A DNA stretch of 27,561 bases, from NCBI GenBank assembly GCA_934630385.1, contig CAKTWE010000018.1, forward strand, positions 1 to 27,561, in the 5' to 3' direction. Under the pieces are notes generated by a model. That model made no database searches. It saw only the letters and a program-made list of their open reading frames with translations, and was not told the DNA's origin. This DNA comes from an uncultured Collinsella sp. GTDB lineage: Bacteria > Actinomycetota > Coriobacteriia > Coriobacteriales > Coriobacteriaceae. A program made the position numbers and the translations under genes. Shown piece after piece: positions 5,007-22,037 of this stretch (positions are counted from its first letter, which is position 1; each line of letters starts with the position of its first letter).

Positions 5007-5074
5007 GTGCTTCACAATATGTGCCGCAACCTGGGTGCGACAGATTCTCCGCGCCCGCATCGAAAGGACCAGCC

Positions 5075-5476
5075 ATGAGCGCCGCTCGCAAGACACTCAA
5101 AATCCTTGCCCTGATTTATTTTGTTCTGGGCATCGCCAGTCTCGTCATTGGAATCGCCGGTATCGCGACCGGCAAGCTCGAGTCCGCCTACGGATCGAAC
5201 GCCATGCTCGCCGCGGTCGTGCTTGTCGCCAAGGGCCTCATTGATCTCGCCGCGGGCGTTGCGGGCATCAAGGGTGCCAACAAGCCTTCGCAGGTAGACG
5301 GCGCGTTTAAGCTCGGTATTGTTGCCGCGGTCGCCACGCTTGCGCAGGCCGTGCTCACGCTTCCCGCGCTCGGCGGCAGCTCCGTCAATATCGTCGCCTT
5401 TGTCATCGTGGTCTACGACCTGTTCTTTATTCAGCAGGCGCACGCCGTCAAGGCCGAGAACAAGGACCGTCTGTAA
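5075..5476 (+). CDS. Small four-helix integral membrane protein, function unknown
   Basis: The ATG at 5075 follows GAAAGGA. The open frame extends upstream to 4826 but without another ribosome site. The 133-residue product has four hydrophobic segments: about 8-32 (ILALIYFVLGIASLVIGIAGI), 43-66 (NAMLAAVVLVAKGLIDLAAGV), 78-98 and 103-121 (VNIVAFVIVVYDLFFI). Charged loops (GANKPSQVDG) and a basic tail separate or end them. It has no enzymatic motif. Proteins of this kind are common, unannotated membrane proteins in Coriobacteria, as far as I recall. It is a single-gene unit closed by the terminator at 5515. Confidence 0.8.
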   Translation: MSAARKTLKILALIYFVLGIASLVIGIAGIATGKLESAYGSNAMLAAVVLVAKGLIDLAAGVAGIKGANKPSQVDGAFKLGIVAAVATLAQAVLTLPALGGSSVNIVAFVIVVYDLFFIQQAHAVKAENKDRL

Positions 5477-12373: not shown

Positions 12374-13987
12374 TTAAAAGGCTACGTTGCCAAACTCCGA
12401 CAGGATAAGGTCGGGGTTGTGGTCGGTTGCCCAGTCCACGTTCCACGGGCTCGTGAACAGCAGCAGCTTACCGCCGCGCATATCCTCGACACGCAGCGTG
12501 TCGCGCGTGAGCGAAAGGGCCGGGATATCGATAGTATCGGGGTCGTTCTGGATCCAGCGGATGTCCGTATAGGGCAGTGGCTGGCGACGAACCTCAACAC
12601 GGTACTCGGCCTTGAGGCGGCGCTCGAGCACCTCAAACTGCAGCACGCCGACCACGCCCACGATGACGCTCTCCATGCCGGCACCCAGCTCGCGGAAGAT
12701 CTGGATGGCGCCCTCCTGGGCAAGCTCCTCCATACCCTTGACGAACTGCTTGCGCTTGAGCGTGTCAACCTGCGTAATGCGAGCGAACATCTCGGGGGCA
12801 AACGTCGGGATCTGCGGGTACTGCACGTGGCGCTTGCCGGAGCACACGGTGTCGCCGATGCTAAAGATACCCGGGTCGAACAGGCCCACGATATCGCCCG
12901 CGTACGCCTCGTCCACGATGGCGCGGTCATCGGCCATCATCGACGTGCCCGTGGCAAGCTTGAGCTTGCGGTTGCCCTGCATGTGGAAGGCGTCCATGCC
13001 GCGCTCGAACTTGCCCGAGCAAATACGCACAAAGGCGATGCGGTCGCGGTGGTTCTTGTCCATGTTGGCCTGGATCTTAAACACAAAGCCGCTAAAGTCA
13101 TCGCGGCAGGGATCGACCGGTTCGCTGGTGAGCGTATCGGTATAGGCGCGCGGCGTCGGGGCCAGACGCAGGAACTCCTTCAGGAAGGGCTCCACGCCAA
13201 AGTTGGTGAGCGCCGAGCCAAAGAACGCCGGGCTCAGCTTGCCGCAGGCCACGGCATCCAAGTCGAGCTCATCGCCGGCACCATCGAGCAGCTCGATATC
13301 GTCCATCAGGTTCTTATGGTTCTCCTCGCCGATGAGCTCATCCATGGAAGGATCACCCAGCTCGGCCTCGACCTCGGCAACCTTCTTGGTGGCGTTGGCG
13401 TGACCGTCGCCCTCAAAGGCAATGACGCGACGGGTCTGACGATCGAACACGCCGCGGAAGTTGCGGCCGCTGCCGATCGGCCAATTCATAGGATACGTAT
13501 TGATACCTAGGACGTTCTCGATCTCTTCCATGAGCTCAAACGGATCGCGAGCCTCGTGGTCAAGCTTGTTCACAAAGGTGAAGATGGGAATGTGGCGCAG
13601 CGTACAGACCTTAAAGAGCTTTTTGGTCTGGGCCTCGACGCCCTTGGCGCCGTCGATGACCATGACCGCGGCGTCGGCGGCCATAAGGGTACGGTAGGTA
13701 TCCTCCGAGAAGTCCTGGTGGCCGGGGGTATCAAGGATGTTGACGCAGGCACCGTTGTAAGTGAACTGCAGCACCGAGGAGGTAACGGAGATACCACGCT
13801 CCTTCTCGATGTCCATCCAGTCCGAGACGGCATGCTTGGCCGAGCTCTTGCCCTTAACCGAGCCGGCAGTCTGGATACTGCCGGTATAGAGCAGCAGCTT
13901 CTCGGTAAGTGTGGTCTTACCGGCGTCCGGGTGGCTGATGATCGCGAACGTGCGGCGCGACGAGATTTCATCCGACAGGCTTGCCAT
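12374..13987 (-). CDS. prfC: Peptide chain release factor 3
   Basis: The 537-residue GTPase recycles RF1 and RF2 from the ribosome after termination. G1 reads SHPDAGKTT at 18-26. KGKSSAKHAVSDWMDIEKERGISVTSS is the RF3-specific switch I region. G3 is DTPGHQDFSEDTYRTL and G4 is NKLD (TFVNKLDHEARDP). The C-terminal LQFEVLERRLKAEY block is also typical of RF3. Length matches the E. coli protein (529). The ATG at 13987 follows AAAGGATCC. The nine-codon in-frame extension upstream has no comparable site. It is transcribed away from the repeat array, with a TACAAT box at 14035-14040. Confidence 0.95.
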   Translation of the reverse strand: MASLSDEISSRRTFAIISHPDAGKTTLTEKLLLYTGSIQTAGSVKGKSSAKHAVSDWMDIEKERGISVTSSVLQFTYNGACVNILDTPGHQDFSEDTYRTLMAADAAVMVIDGAKGVEAQTKKLFKVCTLRHIPIFTFVNKLDHEARDPFELMEEIENVLGINTYPMNWPIGSGRNFRGVFDRQTRRVIAFEGDGHANATKKVAEVEAELGDPSMDELIGEENHKNLMDDIELLDGAGDELDLDAVACGKLSPAFFGSALTNFGVEPFLKEFLRLAPTPRAYTDTLTSEPVDPCRDDFSGFVFKIQANMDKNHRDRIAFVRICSGKFERGMDAFHMQGNRKLKLATGTSMMADDRAIVDEAYAGDIVGLFDPGIFSIGDTVCSGKRHVQYPQIPTFAPEMFARITQVDTLKRKQFVKGMEELAQEGAIQIFRELGAGMESVIVGVVGVLQFEVLERRLKAEYRVEVRRQPLPYTDIRWIQNDPDTIDIPALSLTRDTLRVEDMRGGKLLLFTSPWNVDWATDHNPDLILSEFGNVAF

Positions 13988-14034
13988 GCGGATCCTTTCT
14001 TGCATTGAGTGCATTACGTCGTTGTAACCGCACT

Positions 14035-14040
14035 ATTGTA
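14035..14040 (-). promoter_or_regulatory. Possible -10 element of prfC
   Basis: The coding strand reads TACAAT in GGCTACAATAG, 47 bp before the ATG. A TGCCCT at 18 bp spacing is a poor -35. The stretch 14041-14120 upstream shows no gene or other clear site. Confidence 0.4.
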
Positions 14041-14120
14041 GCCGCGAAATCCCGCCATAGGGCACCTATCAGGACAAATTCATCAGCTGAGCTCGCTGCG
14101 CCGGGCAGCCGCCTCAAGGA

Positions 14121-14419
14121 TTGTCTCGATCTGTAACAGTAAGACGGGTTTTGAGCCCCTACCTGTTACAGATCGAGACAAACCGGCAGGCCCGCCGGCA
14201 CAATCTCGATTTGTAACATCTGACCGCCCAAATTGGGTCTAGCTGTTACAAATCTAGATAAACGGGAAGGCGAGCCGCCAATGTCTCGTTCTGTAACATC
14301 TAGCCGCGCAAATCGACTCTTACTGTTACAGATTGAGACAAATAGGCAGGCGGACAAATAACATCTCAATCTGTAACAGCAAGCGACCCAAAACGGACCT
14401 AGGTGTTACAGATTGAGAT
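14121..14419. repeat. Array of eight alternating 15-nt half-sites, four 80-bp dyad units
   Basis: Forward half-sites (TCTCGATCTGTAACA and variants) lie at 14124-14138, 14204-14218, 14284-14298 and 14364-14378. Reverse half-sites (TGTTACAGATYGAGA and variants) lie at 14164-14178, 14244-14258, 14324-14338 and 14404-14418. Every spacer is exactly 25 nt, so the half-site period is 40 and the unit period 80. Unit 1 arms extend to 18 bp and are perfect. Units 2 and 3 have one and two mismatches. Spacers between units share the pattern AAA--GG-AGGC, and spacers inside units share a central CAAA, so the array probably grew by old 80-bp duplications. Each half-site core TGTTACA is itself a TGT-N-ACA dyad. 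The array sits between outward-facing promoters of prfC and the gntR operon and contains no plausible gene. Function unknown. Confidence 0.95.
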
Positions 14420-14466
14420 TGTTTTGGAGCAAGCGCGGTGCCGGCGGGCCATTCCACGTTTAGCTC

Positions 14467-14517
14467 TTGCATAACTGTGCATAGTGTATATATACTGTGC
14501 TTACCGGTTATATACAC
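14467..14517 (+). promoter_or_regulatory. Promoter and probable operator of the GntR-ABC operon
   Basis: TTGCAT (14467-14472) is followed by TATACT (14491-14496, 18 bp) or TATATA (14489-14494, 16 bp). A perfect inverted pair GTGTATATA (14484-14492) and TATATACAC (14509-14517), centres 25 bp apart, covers the -10 and start region. This suits autorepression by the YtrA-type regulator encoded next, whose family binds AT-rich dyads in its own promoter. Confidence 0.6.
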
Positions 14518-14544
14518 GTGTAGCCCAACAGCTAAGGAGCCGCT

Positions 14545-14925
14545 GTGGACATTATCCTATCCAATTCGAGCGACAAGCCCATCTACGAGCAGATATCCTC
14601 GCAGGTCAAAGCTCAAATCCTTTCGGGCACGCTCGCCGCGGGAGCCAAACTCCCCAGCATCCGCGCACTCGCGAGCGACCTGGGCGTGAGCGTCATCACC
14701 ACCAAGCGCGCCTACGCCGATCTGGAGCAGCTCGGGTTTATCTGTACCGTGCAGGGCAAGGGCTGCTTTGTTGCCGACGGCAACCAAGAACTCTTGCGTG
14801 AAAACCAGCTCTGCCATATCGAAGAGCTGCTTACGCAGGCGGCAGAACAAGCCGAAGCCCTGAGCGTCACGCGCGACAAACTGCACGAGATGCTCGACCT
14901 GGTAGCCCCCGAAACCATGCAGTAG
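14545..14925 (+). CDS. GntR family regulator, YtrA subfamily
   Basis: 126 residues starting with GTG at 14545, five bases after AAGGAG. The winged helix-turn-helix (about 10-76) reads PIYEQISSQVKAQILSGTLAAGAKLPSIRALASDLGVSVITTKRAYADLEQLG, a standard GntR domain. Only about 45 residues follow, as in the YtrA subfamily, where the short tail dimerises and there is no full effector domain. YtrA-type proteins repress adjacent ABC transporter operons and respond to cell-envelope stress such as some peptide antibiotics. That is family knowledge. The ABC ATPase gene starts 23 bp downstream, and the promoter carries a perfect 9-bp inverted repeat. Confidence 0.92.
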   Translation: MDIILSNSSDKPIYEQISSQVKAQILSGTLAAGAKLPSIRALASDLGVSVITTKRAYADLEQLGFICTVQGKGCFVADGNQELLRENQLCHIEELLTQAAEQAEALSVTRDKLHEMLDLVAPETMQ

Positions 14926-14948: not shown

Positions 14949-15830
14949 ATGCAAAACTTGTTAGAACTCAAAGGTGTCTCACGCCGCGTGAGCGACCGTT
15001 TTTCGCTGCGTGATGTCACGTTCGCCGTGGAGCCCGGCCAGATTATTGGCTTTGTGGGCGCTAACGGTGCCGGCAAGACAACGACCATTCGCGCCGCGCT
15101 CGGGCTTATCAAGCTCGATGCCGGCGAGGTGCGCCTGTTTGGGCAGCGCTGTGGCGCCGACGCGCCCGATGAGACACAGCGCTGCCTGCGCTCCCGCGTC
15201 GGTCTCGTCCTGGACACATGCCCCTTCCCTTCAACGCTCAAGGTGGGCCAGATCGAGGCACTCGTAGGCCAGGCGTACCCCACGTGGGACCGCAAAACGT
15301 TCGCCGGATTCATCGACCGATTTGGCCTCGATCCCAAGACAAAGGTCAAGGATCTCTCCCGTGGCATGGGCATGAAACTGCAGCTTGCCTGTGCACTCAG
15401 CCATAATGCCAAGCTACTCCTTTTGGACGAAGCCACCGCGGGCCTCGATCCCATGGCGCGCGAGGAACTGCTCGATGAGCTGCTTGCTTTTGTCGCCGAC
15501 GGCCAGCACAGCGTGCTGCTCTCGAGCCACATTACGTCCGACCTCGATCGCGCCGCCGACCGCGTCATCTGCATCGATAACGGCTCGATTGTGTTTGACC
15601 TGCCGCGCGAGGACATTACCGACCGAGCCGGCATCGCCCACTGCACCCAAGCGCAGGCCGCCGAGCTTATGGCTTGCGTCGAAGGTGCCCATGCCGCCCG
15701 CCACGCCTACAGCGTGGACGTGCTCGTGCCCAACCGTCGCGAAACGCTCGAGGCCTTTCCCGAGATTCCCTGCGATCGGGTAACCATTGACGACTATCTT
15801 CGCCTCACGCTGAAAGGGGCTTCAAAATGA
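14949..15830 (+). CDS. ABC transporter ATP-binding protein, YtrB/BcrA-like
   Basis: 293 residues. Walker A is GANGAGKTTT at 37-46. The signature loop is LSRGMGMKLQLACAL, a variant of LSGGQ with Arg-Gly-Met. Walker B is LLLLDEATAGLDP, followed by the H-loop SSHITSDLD. A C-terminal extension of about 70 residues follows, as in BcrA/YtrB-type ATPases. It powers the permease encoded next, whose start overlaps its stop by ATGA (15827-15830). The set is a typical GntR-controlled exporter or envelope-stress ABC system. Which compound it acts on is unknown. Its ribosome site AAGAAAGG lies 8 bp before the ATG. Confidence 0.92.
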   Translation: MQNLLELKGVSRRVSDRFSLRDVTFAVEPGQIIGFVGANGAGKTTTIRAALGLIKLDAGEVRLFGQRCGADAPDETQRCLRSRVGLVLDTCPFPSTLKVGQIEALVGQAYPTWDRKTFAGFIDRFGLDPKTKVKDLSRGMGMKLQLACALSHNAKLLLLDEATAGLDPMAREELLDELLAFVADGQHSVLLSSHITSDLDRAADRVICIDNGSIVFDLPREDITDRAGIAHCTQAQAAELMACVEGAHAARHAYSVDVLVPNRRETLEAFPEIPCDRVTIDDYLRLTLKGASK

Positions 15831-16525
15831 AACGCGCCTTTATGTCCGAGCTCGCCATCGCTCGCACGCTCATCCCGAGCATTGCGGGCGTCGGCCTGTT
15901 CATCTTCGTCGTGCTAACCCTTGCCAACGCATCGGACGGCGATTCCGGTATGAGCGCCGGCGCCTGCGCGGTCAGCGCCATGTCACCCATCATAATCATG
16001 AACTCACTGGCTGGCTACGATAACCAAAACGGTTGGGAGCGCTATCGGGCAACGCTGCCGTTCTCGCGCAAAGACATCATCTGCGCACGCTACCTGTGCA
16101 TTATTGCTTTCTCGGCCGTCATGGCATGCGCCGCCGTGCTTTTGAACATCATCGCCCTTCCGTTCTTCGATCACACGGGCATTCCCTCGACGGGACAGAC
16201 CGTCTTTGAGATCACAATAGCCTCCGCCGCATCGATGCTCATCTCCCTCATGATGGTGTTTTTAGCACAGCCGCTGTTCTTTCGATTTGGACACATGGAG
16301 GCGCTGCGCCTTTCCGTCGGCCTGTTTGCCCTGATGGGCTGCGGTACCATGGCAATGCTGAGCTCTTCCAACCCCATCAGCAACTGGCTCATGTCGATTG
16401 CCGGAGCGAATCCCGATCCTGCCGTTCTGGGCTGTCTGTGCGCAGGAATTGCCGTGCTGGCCCTCGCGCTATGTGCAATCAGCTGCACCGTCAGCACCAA
16501 GGTCTATCGAGCACGCGATCTGTAG
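15827..16525 (+). CDS. ABC-2 type permease of the GntR-controlled transporter
   Basis: 232 residues with about six transmembrane helices. The first spans roughly 13-33 (IPSIAGVGLFIFVVLTLANA) and the last 208-228 (LGCLCAGIAVLALALCAISC). The segment NQNGWERYRATLPFSRKDIICARYL between helices 2 and 3 is the cytoplasmic coupling region seen in ABC-2 permeases of the YtrC/ABC2_membrane_5 type. It overlaps the ATPase gene by four bases and ends the operon. The 90-bp gap to the convergent ClC gene has a few short GC-rich dyads but no clear terminator. Confidence 0.88.
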   Translation: MKRAFMSELAIARTLIPSIAGVGLFIFVVLTLANASDGDSGMSAGACAVSAMSPIIIMNSLAGYDNQNGWERYRATLPFSRKDIICARYLCIIAFSAVMACAAVLLNIIALPFFDHTGIPSTGQTVFEITIASAASMLISLMMVFLAQPLFFRFGHMEALRLSVGLFALMGCGTMAMLSSSNPISNWLMSIAGANPDPAVLGCLCAGIAVLALALCAISCTVSTKVYRARDL

Positions 16526-19145: not shown

Positions 19146-19232
19146 GCGGGACCGTTTAGCGGTGCAGCTGCCGACTGGGCAGGCTGAGCTGGTATCCTTA
19201 TGCGGTAATGTCTCGATTCGTTAGGATTGCAT

Positions 19233-22037
19233 GTGAGAGCTTCCGCTGTCCTTCGTTCAGTTATATATCGCGCCCTGGCCATTGTGCTTGCCGCGCTTGC
19301 CGTGCTGAGTTCTATCGCGCCTGCCCAGGCTTTTGCCGATGACTCTAGTCAGCCAGTCAAAACGGTCCGCGTTGGTTGGCTCGTCAACAATGAGGGCTTC
19401 CAGGACGGCACCCCCGGCGAGCGTCTCTCGGGATGGGGTTACGAGTACCTCCAGACCCTCTCGTACTACACACCCGGCTGGCAGTACGAATACGTCTCCG
19501 GCACCTTCACCGAGCTTATGGAGAAGCTCGAAGCCGGCGAGATTGACCTCATGCCAAACATCTCCTACTCCGAAGAACGCGCCCAAAAACTGCTCTTCTC
19601 GTCGAACCCCGAGGGCACCGAACGCTACTACATCTACGCTAGGCCCGACCGTGACGACCTCGCAAAGGGTGACCCTCAAGCACTCCAGGGTCTCACTATC
19701 GGTTTCAACCCCGGCGTCATGCAAACCATCGTTGGCCAGCAATGGCTCGCCAACGAGGGCATTACCTGTACCTATAAGGAAATCAGCAGTAACGGCGACC
19801 TTTTCGATGCGCTGGCAAACGGCGAGGTCGACGCCATCATCATGAACGACACGACCTCGTCGCCCAACGCCTCCCCCATGTTCTACATTGGTTCGAGCGA
19901 CTACTACTTTGCCGTTCCCAAAAGCCACCCCGACCTGATGAACGACATCAATGCTGCCATGACGGCAATCGCTCGCGTCAACCCACGCTATAACGACGAA
20001 GTCAAATCTAGCTACTCGACCCAAAACAGCGGTTCATCATCGCTCAACGGCCCCGAATGTTCTTGGCTCAAAGCAAACAACAACACCATCACGCTCGGCT
20101 ACATTACGGGCAAACTCCCCTACTGCAACGAGGACGAAGACGGCGAAATGGAAGGATCGCTCGCATCGCTTGCGACGACGCTACACGATAAATTTGGCAT
20201 TACGGTCAAAACCGTCGCCTTTGATAGCTACAAGATGATGTCAAAGGCTCTGTCAAAGGGAAGTATAGACGTTGCGCTGCCGGTATACCGAGATTACTGG
20301 TTTGCCGAGCAAACAGGCGTTGTGCAGTCGATATCGTTGGGGACCATATCCCTCACCGCCATCCACACCGGCAGCAACCTGAACAAAGACCTTCAGAACA
20401 TCGCCTGTACCAAATCATCGTTTGTCAACAAAAATGCACTTGAAAGTCTGTTCCCCACAGCGACCGTAACCGAATACCAATCCGACGATGAAGCGTTCGA
20501 TGCCCTCAGGAAGGGAACGGCGCACTGCATCGTCGCTCCCAGTTCACGCGTAAAAACCATCGGTGACCGTTACGATCTCGAGGACTGCGAGACGACCGAG
20601 CTCCCTGACACCTGTGAGCTCTCGTGCTGGATTTCGCGCGGAAAACCCGAGCTGTTGGGAATCATCAACAAGGGCATCATCAATGCCGGAGAATCGCTCT
20701 CCGCAAGCAATTTCTCCTCCACGTCGTACACGGCCCAGGAATCCAACACGCTTCAATTCCTTTATCGCAACCGCACCGCCATTGCAGCTACCCTCATCGG
20801 TATGTTGTCGGTCGGCGTCGTCCTGCTCATCTGGGCGCTCGTGCGCGCTCGAACCGAGCGCAAAAAAGCCGATGCTGCCAACGCCGCTAAGACGGCATTC
20901 CTCACGCGCATGAGCCACGACATCCGCACGCCGCTCAACGGCATCCTGGGCCTTATCGAGATCGAGGAATTGAAGGAAGGCGATATGCAAGTCGCCCGCG
21001 AGAGCCGTGCCAAGGCGCGCGTTGCCGCCAGTCACCTGCTCTCGCTGATCAACGACATCCTCGAGATGGGAAAAATCGAAGACCGCAAGCTAACACTGGA
21101 ACATGCGCCTTTTAACCTCAAAGAGCTCTGTGACGATACGCTGGTGCTGTGCAAGCTCCGCGCGTCCAGTAACGGCATCACAATGCAGGACAATAGTCTG
21201 CCGTACGCCACGGGGCCATACATGATCGGCAGTCCCACCCATATCCGACAGATCATGATCAACCTGTTAGACAACAGCATTAAGTACAACAAGCACGGCG
21301 GCTCCGTCACCTTTAGTTCAAAGACCAAGCCACTCGATAACGGGCGCGCGCTCTTTTGCTTTAGCGTTTCGGATACCGGCATTGGCATGGCTCCCGAGTT
21401 TTTAAAGCATATCTATGAGCCGTTTGCCCAAGAAGGTGACGATGCGCGCAGCAAGTTCCAAGGAACCGGCATGGGCATGCCAATCGTCAAGTCGCTTATT
21501 GAACTGATGGGCGGCACGATTGAGATTTCGAGTGAGGTGGGCGTGGGAAGCACGTTCAACGTCCAGATTCCGCTCGATATCGACAAAAACCCTCAGGCAA
21601 GAGAGGCTGCGAACAGGCCGGCAAACAGCTGCTCGCTTGCCGGGATGAACATCCTTTTGGCAGAAGATAACGAGCTCAATGCCGAGATTGCCCAGGCTCT
21701 GCTCGAAAGCGAAGGCATCGTCGTTACTCGTGCCGCCGACGGCAACGAAACGGTCGACCTATACATGGGGCGTCCTGCCGGCAGCTTCGATGCGATCCTG
21801 ATGGACATCATGATGCCGGGCATGGATGGCTACGAGGCAACCCGCGCGATTCGTCTGAGCGAGAAGGCCGATGCGGCCGACATCCCCATCATCGCACTCA
21901 CCGCCAACGCCTTTGCCGAAGACGCCAAGGCGGCACACGACGCCGGCATGAACGCCCATCTGCCCAAACCGCTCGACTTTAGCAAGCTCAAAAACATACT
22001 CGCCTGTATCAAGAAAAACGGAGCCGTTTCGCTATAG
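19233..22037 (+). CDS. BvgS-like hybrid sensor histidine kinase with two fused solute-binding domains
   Basis: About 934 residues. A GTG at 19233 lies six bases after AGGA. The TTG at 19227 abuts that site. A signal peptide of about 35 residues ends near APAQA. Two SBP_bac_3 (periplasmic amino-acid-binding) domains follow at about 45-255 (VRVGWLVNNEGF) and 283-500 (ITLGYITGKLPYC). One transmembrane helix lies at about 517-537. The phospho-acceptor His562 sits in MSHDIRTPLNGIL, and the ATPase domain has NLLDNSIKYN, DTGIGM and GTGMGM. A receiver domain carries phospho-acceptor Asp858 in LMDIMMPG. Ligand binding outside the cell would set autophosphorylation and transfer to the receiver. No Hpt domain or output regulator is encoded nearby. 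It reads towards the second hybrid kinase. Confidence 0.92.
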   Translation: MRASAVLRSVIYRALAIVLAALAVLSSIAPAQAFADDSSQPVKTVRVGWLVNNEGFQDGTPGERLSGWGYEYLQTLSYYTPGWQYEYVSGTFTELMEKLEAGEIDLMPNISYSEERAQKLLFSSNPEGTERYYIYARPDRDDLAKGDPQALQGLTIGFNPGVMQTIVGQQWLANEGITCTYKEISSNGDLFDALANGEVDAIIMNDTTSSPNASPMFYIGSSDYYFAVPKSHPDLMNDINAAMTAIARVNPRYNDEVKSSYSTQNSGSSSLNGPECSWLKANNNTITLGYITGKLPYCNEDEDGEMEGSLASLATTLHDKFGITVKTVAFDSYKMMSKALSKGSIDVALPVYRDYWFAEQTGVVQSISLGTISLTAIHTGSNLNKDLQNIACTKSSFVNKNALESLFPTATVTEYQSDDEAFDALRKGTAHCIVAPSSRVKTIGDRYDLEDCETTELPDTCELSCWISRGKPELLGIINKGIINAGESLSASNFSSTSYTAQESNTLQFLYRNRTAIAATLIGMLSVGVVLLIWALVRARTERKKADAANAAKTAFLTRMSHDIRTPLNGILGLIEIEELKEGDMQVARESRAKARVAASHLLSLINDILEMGKIEDRKLTLEHAPFNLKELCDDTLVLCKLRASSNGITMQDNSLPYATGPYMIGSPTHIRQIMINLLDNSIKYNKHGGSVTFSSKTKPLDNGRALFCFSVSDTGIGMAPEFLKHIYEPFAQEGDDARSKFQGTGMGMPIVKSLIELMGGTIEISSEVGVGSTFNVQIPLDIDKNPQAREAANRPANSCSLAGMNILLAEDNELNAEIAQALLESEGIVVTRAADGNETVDLYMGRPAGSFDAILMDIMMPGMDGYEATRAIRLSEKADAADIPIIALTANAFAEDAKAAHDAGMNAHLPKPLDFSKLKNILACIKKNGAVSL

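Follow-up and report, generated by a model that had tools for sequence, protein, structure and literature searches.

REPINs of Pseudomonas fluorescens SBW25 are doublets of REP sequences which form hairpins and occur together with RAYT transposases (PMC3116915). As that account describes them, REPINs have conserved inverted ends and a fixed spacer, and they are explained as mobile elements. BIMEs consist of regularly spaced sequences in alternating orientation, and REPs and BIMEs have been described as binding sites for several proteins (PMC2817692). The GTAG/CGTC-tagged palindromic repeats are short dispersed families of 20-40 bp palindromes, and not all of them have a dedicated transposase; the main text of the paper that describes them contains neither the word Collinsella nor the word Actinobacteria (PMC3733652).

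We analyzed a stretch of 27,561 nucleotides (the window) from an uncultured Collinsella sp., which contains an array of inverted half-sites belonging to a dispersed family. Like the REPINs of the SBW25 account, which have a ~16-mer in this place, the Collinsella units are inverted pairs of a highly conserved sequence at a fixed distance with a variable interior, and they are extragenic, multicopy and clustered in tandem (PMC3116915). Unlike REPINs, which are mostly solitary in the same account, the Collinsella units lie mostly in tandem arrays. None of the RAYT genes examined has the Collinsella repeat at its flanks. The arms of this repeat are complementary through conserved sequence while their variable positions do not covary overall, and its orthologous copies do not decay. 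The regular spacing and alternating orientation recall BIMEs, but the Collinsella half-site is not a palindromic REP, the interior length is almost invariant, and interiors and linkers are as diverged as the flanks. In contrast to the GTAG/CGTC repeats, the Collinsella dyad is 55 bp long with a 25-bp interior and carries neither tag at its end; its conserved TAG sits inside the dyad. Of the known kinds, REPIN/BIME elements come closest. Arrays of operator or parS-like duplex sites also have long conserved half-sites, fixed geometry and clustered repeats, a likeness which the Collinsella arrays share. We know of no family with this sequence, and among the open-licence PubMed Central papers listed none was recognized as describing the repeat.

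Geometry of the dyad unit

The window array (14124-14418) consists of eight 15-nt half-sites, TCTCGATCTGTAACA or its reverse complement, in strict alternation (+-+-+-+-) at a pitch of 40 bp. They start at 14124, 14164, 14204, 14244, 14284, 14324, 14364 and 14404 and carry 0-2 mismatches each. The paired pattern TCTCRATCTGTAACA-N25-TGTTACAGATYGAGA (≤3 mismatches) matched the window four times and was found in none of 100 dinucleotide shuffles. At the same tolerance the single half-site gave 10 matches in the window, 8 of them inside the array, compared to 0.66 expected. These match positions and shuffles confirm the seven exact 40-bp steps described in a sequence-only reading of this DNA. Its placement of the array between outward-pointing genes was also correct, as prfC lies on the minus strand and a gene for a GntR-family regulator on the plus strand (Table 1).

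Table 1. Features of the array and its surroundings (positions in the window)
Feature	Position	Strand	Description
Dyad unit 1	14124..14178	+	half-sites 14124-14138 (+), 14164-14178 (-); 25-bp interior; 0 mismatches to paired consensus
Linker, units 1/2	14179..14203	.	25 bp
Dyad unit 2	14204..14258	+	half-sites 14204-14218 (+), 14244-14258 (-); 25-bp interior; 3 mismatches to paired consensus
Linker, units 2/3	14259..14283	.	25 bp
Dyad unit 3	14284..14338	+	half-sites 14284-14298 (+), 14324-14338 (-); 25-bp interior; 1 mismatch to paired consensus
Linker, units 3/4	14339..14363	.	25 bp
Dyad unit 4	14364..14418	+	half-sites 14364-14378 (+), 14404-14418 (-); 25-bp interior; 0 mismatches to paired consensus
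prfC, peptide chain release factor 3 (flanking gene, context)	12374..14014	-	NCBIfam NF001964 and TIGR00503 above cut-off
GntR-family regulator gene (flanking gene, context)	14545..14925	+	Pfam GntR above cut-off
ABC ATPase and ABC-2 type permease genes, downstream of GntR gene (context)	14949..16525	+	ATPase 14949-15830, permease 15827-16525; Pfam

The top NCBIfam match of the GntR-family regulator is PmtR (NF047563), whose 138 bits are under that model's cut-off of 200. Just 5' of its gene, positions 14474-14520 hold an imperfect direct repeat (ACTGTGCATAGTGTATATAT / ACTGTGCTTACCGGTTATAT) which is nearly constant across 20 aligned loci and is perhaps the operator of this regulator, separate from the array. 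Elsewhere in the window, 19227-22037 encodes a hybrid histidine kinase that combines an extracellular solute-binding domain (SBP_bac_3) with a receiver domain.

The geometry of the unit was examined in three genomes, with 45 units in 19 arrays in G001 (the genome nearest to the window among those searched), 42 units in 17 arrays in G015 and 56 units in 20 arrays in G083. The interior of the dyad measures 25 bp in 141 of these 143 units, the exceptions being one of 26 and one of 24 bp. Linkers between dyads (n = 87) measure 25 bp in 54 cases, 26 bp in 32 and 24 bp in one. Interiors and linkers differ in how often they are 25 bp long (Fisher 4e-14, with orthologous units not independent). Because the interior is rigid and the linker may be 25 or 26 bp, the unit is the 55-bp dyad (~63 bp counting flanking conserved bases) and not each 40-bp step. 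The earlier suggestion of an oligomer reading sites every 40 bp is therefore unsupported as stated, since the rigid distance lies within the dyad. Arrays contain 1-5 dyads, beginning with a + half-site and ending with a - half-site save for a few with damaged units. At one G001 locus (L073), which carries a remnant of a Mutator-type transposase, the dyad at 5058-5113 has a broken right half-site.

The aligned half-sites read WWTR-TCTCRATCTGTAACA-NNTAG, followed by six mainly G/C bases and a central AAA. Each position of the core TGTAAC is conserved at 96-100% (172 half-sites, G001 and G015), and the most variable half-site positions are 5 (a purine, G or A) and the preceding C at position 4. 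Within the interior, two features are conserved family-wide: a TAG 8-10 bp away from the dyad centre and an A-tract at the centre itself. The base before the TAG, counted on one side of 141 units, is most often C (77), then T (39), G (19) and A (6). Thus the spacers, which had been called widely diverged, do drift, but not at the TAG and the central A-tract.

Distribution and turnover of the arrays

The sequence-only reading had treated the array as a unique locus. Instead, it is a member of a dispersed intergenic family, with ~20 arrays per genome, almost confined to the Collinsella aerofaciens group. In G001, 93 half-sites were found (≤2 mismatches), nearly all within the 19 arrays, and a reversed control sequence gave none. 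The count of CTGTAACA-N25-TGTTACAG pairs (≤2 mismatches) is bimodal among 43 genomes of the genus: 22 have 26-67 pairs (the array-bearing genomes) and 21 have 0-1. In 35 genomes outside the genus there were 0-2 pairs. A stricter 55-bp pattern matched 23 of 396 genomes of the class, every one in this genus; these are 21 array-bearing genomes plus G014 and G031 with one unit apiece. Orthologous loci with organism names assign the array-bearing group to Collinsella aerofaciens and its close relatives in the genus. Counts of 0-1 pairs were obtained for C. massiliensis, Collinsella sp. An7, Candidatus C. stercoripullorum and Enorma massiliensis. Named and unnamed counts overlap, as G083 and G080, which were reached via named loci, share match coordinates with G019 and G011.

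Phages gave no match to the repeat, and among plasmids one record matched, at 17 places, a C. aerofaciens replicon of 900 kb. No relatives of prfC were found in viral contigs. One sequence classed as viral (IMGVR_UViG_2857861838, L061) begins with 1.1 kb (1-1118) which is 88% identical to a chromosomal G001 array locus and contains two dyads; this part is probably host DNA. The chromosome positions of the arrays are uneven in G001 and G015 (Rayleigh p 0.022 and 0.028, tests not independent), a signal too weak to use, and chromosome position was dropped as an argument.

Six other genomes had one loose match. The matches in G016, G023 and G026 were chance-like and those in G029, G031 and G014 were real. 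In both G029 and G031 a single unit lies between a TetR gene and clpB sequence; the unit of G014 lies beside a tRNA and runs on into C. aerofaciens-like DNA. The G029 clpB shares 97-98% identity with the clpB of the array-bearing genomes and 85-91% with that of other species. In G031, the clpB similarity at the unit locus stops early, and a second, complete clpB match is present elsewhere in the genome. The fragment with the TetR gene, the dyad unit and C. aerofaciens-type clpB sequence (L057, L044, L290) in these two other Collinsella species is apparently transferred DNA. That C. aerofaciens-type DNA adjoins all three outside units fits transfer, and we rejected the idea that they are ancestral sites. 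One arm of the G029 and G031 units is altered at positions which hardly vary within the clade, a change to be expected if these genomes lacked the binder; since both share the same fragment, these changes count as one observation.

Within the clade, arrays come and go. Among 19 loci orthologous to the window locus, 10 carry arrays, each of 2-4 units, and the other 9 have a common empty allele. Seventeen of the 19 loci are in searchable genomes, all of which have 38-67 pairs regardless of the array at this locus. At the clpB locus an array is present in 17 of the 22 array-bearing genomes, with varying sets of whole units, and is missing from five, one of those loci being interrupted by a contig end. 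These absences suggest that no single array is essential, and the arrays seem individually dispensable. The sequence-only reading had regarded irregular spacing at orthologous loci as a sign against selection on phase; the 10 orthologous arrays at the window locus proved equally regular, with linkers of 24-26 bp. Shorter arrays stay in register at both loci, as expected from recombination between like half-sites, and such in-register gain and loss of whole units partly explains the regular 80-bp period.

Presence at the window locus requires 6 changes on either flanking-gene tree, a number matched by 194 and 172 of 500 shuffles, and the pattern likely reflects recombination or repeated gain and loss. 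Between the closest paralogous spacers, at least 5 of 25 positions differ in G001, at least 3 in G015 and at least 1 in G083, where the closest spacers belong to two glycosidase loci with similar flanks. In G015, the units of one pair at 0.21 and 1.82 Mb are alike past the unit limits (8 of 81 mismatches). Judged from these alignments, a recent burst is not evident, yet exchange or copying between loci appears to occur.

Half-site conservation, arm covariation and RAYT genes

The last unit at the clpB locus, beginning with TCT, was compared among 14 of the 22 array-bearing genomes (14 of the 17 loci with an array). Half-sites diverge by 2.6% without positions 4 and 5 and by 5.8% with them. The inner spacer diverges by 35%, the left linker by 28% and the right flank by 35%; the whole 25-nt interior, TAG and A-tract included, differs by 20%. 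In a wider set of 60 unit pairs the ranking was unchanged, with 5% at half-sites, 12% in the inner spacer and 36% in linkers, the spacer value being biased downward because units were matched by shared flank and spacer similarity. Nearly constant half-sites at an orthologous locus where linker, flank and inner spacer drift argue that selection acts in place. This does not look like the pattern of copies merely decaying after insertion. Conservation in place and the fixed interior length support the earlier proposal of a DNA-level role with selection on spacing.

The same proposal had offered hairpins, either as four cruciform units or in an RNA from an unseen promoter. Single strands of the window units gave much better folds than shuffles did (z -5.9 to -8.9), a result to be expected of any inverted repeat. 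Among 115 non-redundant units, however, arm agreement was 1580 compared to 1574.5 with shuffled partners (p = 0.21), that is, there is no overall covariation. Position 8, one of seven testable arm positions, leans to agreement (z 2.2), whereas in 52 of the 115 units the paired arms disagree at position 5, and inner positions 12 and 5 bp away from the centre avoid complementary bases (G001, G015, G083). No promoter-like site was found in 13950-14560, and a search for intrinsic terminators (GC-rich stem and T run) gave one weak match, with 0.5 expected by chance. Rfam 15 gave five matches, all far below gathering score, so that the exact match to a catalogued repeat family which had been named as a possible counter-argument did not appear there. 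The lack of covariation argues against RNA hairpins and cruciforms and is the pattern of duplex sites. We consider hairpin-rich RNA or cruciform units, bidirectional terminators included, highly improbable.

Half-site conservation in place, fixed geometry and arms that do not covary point indirectly to protein binding. We see an even chance that the dyads are putative duplex DNA sites for dimers of one sequence-specific, clade-specific protein. Each protomer would read one long half-site and the dimer would span the fixed interior with its central A-tract; 1-5 dyads in a row would load several dimers side by side. Of the explanations weighed, this duplex protein-binding reading appears the most likely and a REPIN-like mobile family comes next, and the two are not exclusive.

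In the mobile explanation, the units are a selfish REPIN/BIME-like population copied by a transposase, possibly RAYT-B, and their ends are conserved because only intact-ended units spread. The inverted conserved ends, fixed interior, tandem clusters, extragenic location and presence/absence polymorphism are all REPIN-like (PMC3116915). Relatives of REP-associated tyrosine transposases (RAYTs) are common in the genus, and the RAYT-B lineage (≥75% identity) is found in 21 of the 22 array-bearing genomes and in none of the other 21 Collinsella genomes. Since the array-bearing genomes have the same type of clpB (97-98% identity to the G029 query vs. 85-91% in other species), this co-occurrence is confounded with a single clade and indistinguishable from shared descent. 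No half-site (≤2 mismatches) was found in 40 RAYT loci of ~3.4 kb, 23 of them from array-bearing genomes, a subset of the RAYT copies present. In G007, which is without RAYT-B, the half-sites are intact, with a mean of 0.82 mismatches per unit (hand count) compared to 0.63-0.86 in three other genomes. The RAYT-B copies of G003, G010 and G004 (L201, L203 and L214) have serine at the expected catalytic tyrosine, which three other copies keep, and the genomes with the serine copies retain 48-54 units. The dN/dS of RAYT-B is 0.15-0.26 in all 10 pairs of five copies (L214 not among them).

Some RAYT genes do have palindromic neighbours. In array-free Collinsella, 9 of 10 scanned RAYT loci are flanked by other palindromes, some with core GGGACAGGCAC. 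These palindromic or inverted repeats (L216, L218, L219, L222, L224, L226, L229, L230, L232) comprise several unrelated sequences. A GACAGGCAC-core palindrome, like those at the RAYT genes of some array-free Collinsella, was found no more than 150 bp away from 5 arrays in G001 (of 19), 3 in G015 (of 17) and 4 in G083 (of 20), and is absent at the window array. In the sampled 52% of G001, 7 of 16 GACAGGCAC-core copies are beside arrays compared to 0.08 expected under even spread; the sample holds all array loci by design, so that 7/16 overstates the genome-wide share, and the expectation ignores intergenic preference. Array-bearing genomes contain a second dispersed family, whose members are near-perfect palindromes of ~38 bp (AAACCACCACAAAGGGGACAGGCACCTTTGTGGTGGTTT) and often stand no farther than 80 bp from an array. 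It was seen beside arrays at L062, L071, L072, L074 and L075, and in G001 at 69991, 441971, 954763 and other positions. Arrays and RAYT-type palindromes thus share a niche, and a role of the arrays as RAYT substrate is only a candidate.

The near-copy between two G015 loci, the close spacers of G083 and the second-family palindromes beside arrays point to mobile-element behaviour or exchange. Observations that bear on REPIN-type mobility comprise this one near-copy and presence/absence at loci, with no transposition event among them. Orthologous copies which do not decay at their half-sites, together with spacers that give no sign of a recent burst, speak against a selfish population, and we regard it as possible, if on the doubtful side. 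Under the protein-binding reading, a repeat that once was mobile may have been co-opted as a binding site.

Neighbouring genes and a possible role

Genes beside 18 G001 arrays and the window array were found with a simple ORF script and Pfam searches of 39 proteins (6 without a match), and names such as thrS and gltB were read from Pfam domains. Script ORFs overlapping the array were replaced by hand at L067, L071 and the window, and the broken unit at L073 5058 was excluded from the orientation count. The neighbours are mainly housekeeping, metabolic or regulatory genes with no common theme. If the arrays were operators of an ordinary global transcription factor, the adjacent genes would be its regulon. 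At least one gene start faces 12 of the 19 arrays (6 divergent, 6 tandem), for example at prfC/gntR, clpB and gltB/Nramp, but 7 arrays lie between convergent genes. This mix is not significantly different from that of sampled G001 gaps of ≥150 bp (14 convergent, 11 divergent, 31 tandem; tandem vs. rest, Fisher p 0.11). Given also neighbours without a functional theme and arrays that come and go at given loci between close relatives, we judge the operator explanation improbable.

A gene for a 364-amino acid protein (P0001; L066 4743-5837 and L236-L249) stands between dyads at 12 of the 14 array-bearing loci retrieved, and at the other two a contig end interrupts the locus. Its Pfam search gave no match; from a motif recognized by eye, we take it to be possibly a PD-(D/E)XK nuclease. 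P0001 is not required as the cognate protein, as G010, G011 and G015 have only distant relatives (17 array-bearing genomes searched).

Neighbours without a common theme, given that an array can be missing, weakly suggest an architectural role over the control of particular genes: the dyads, read as duplex protein-binding sites, may bridge the nucleoid or insulate transcription units from one another. We tentatively propose, as a rather unlikely picture, a species-complex-specific chromosome-organising system in which ~100 half-sites in ~20 arrays would be bound by dimers of a dedicated protein, with the arrays bridged or insulating. Redundancy among arrays would make each dispensable while every half-site would still be under selection. 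In a variant of this picture the binder could be a domesticated RAYT, without the catalytic tyrosine in some strains.

Short dispersed inverted repeats of bacteria are often read as selfish REP-type elements. With the Collinsella arrays, the question whether such repeats benefit the host becomes tractable, and the arrays offer a clean bait for a new DNA-binding protein in a common human gut commensal.
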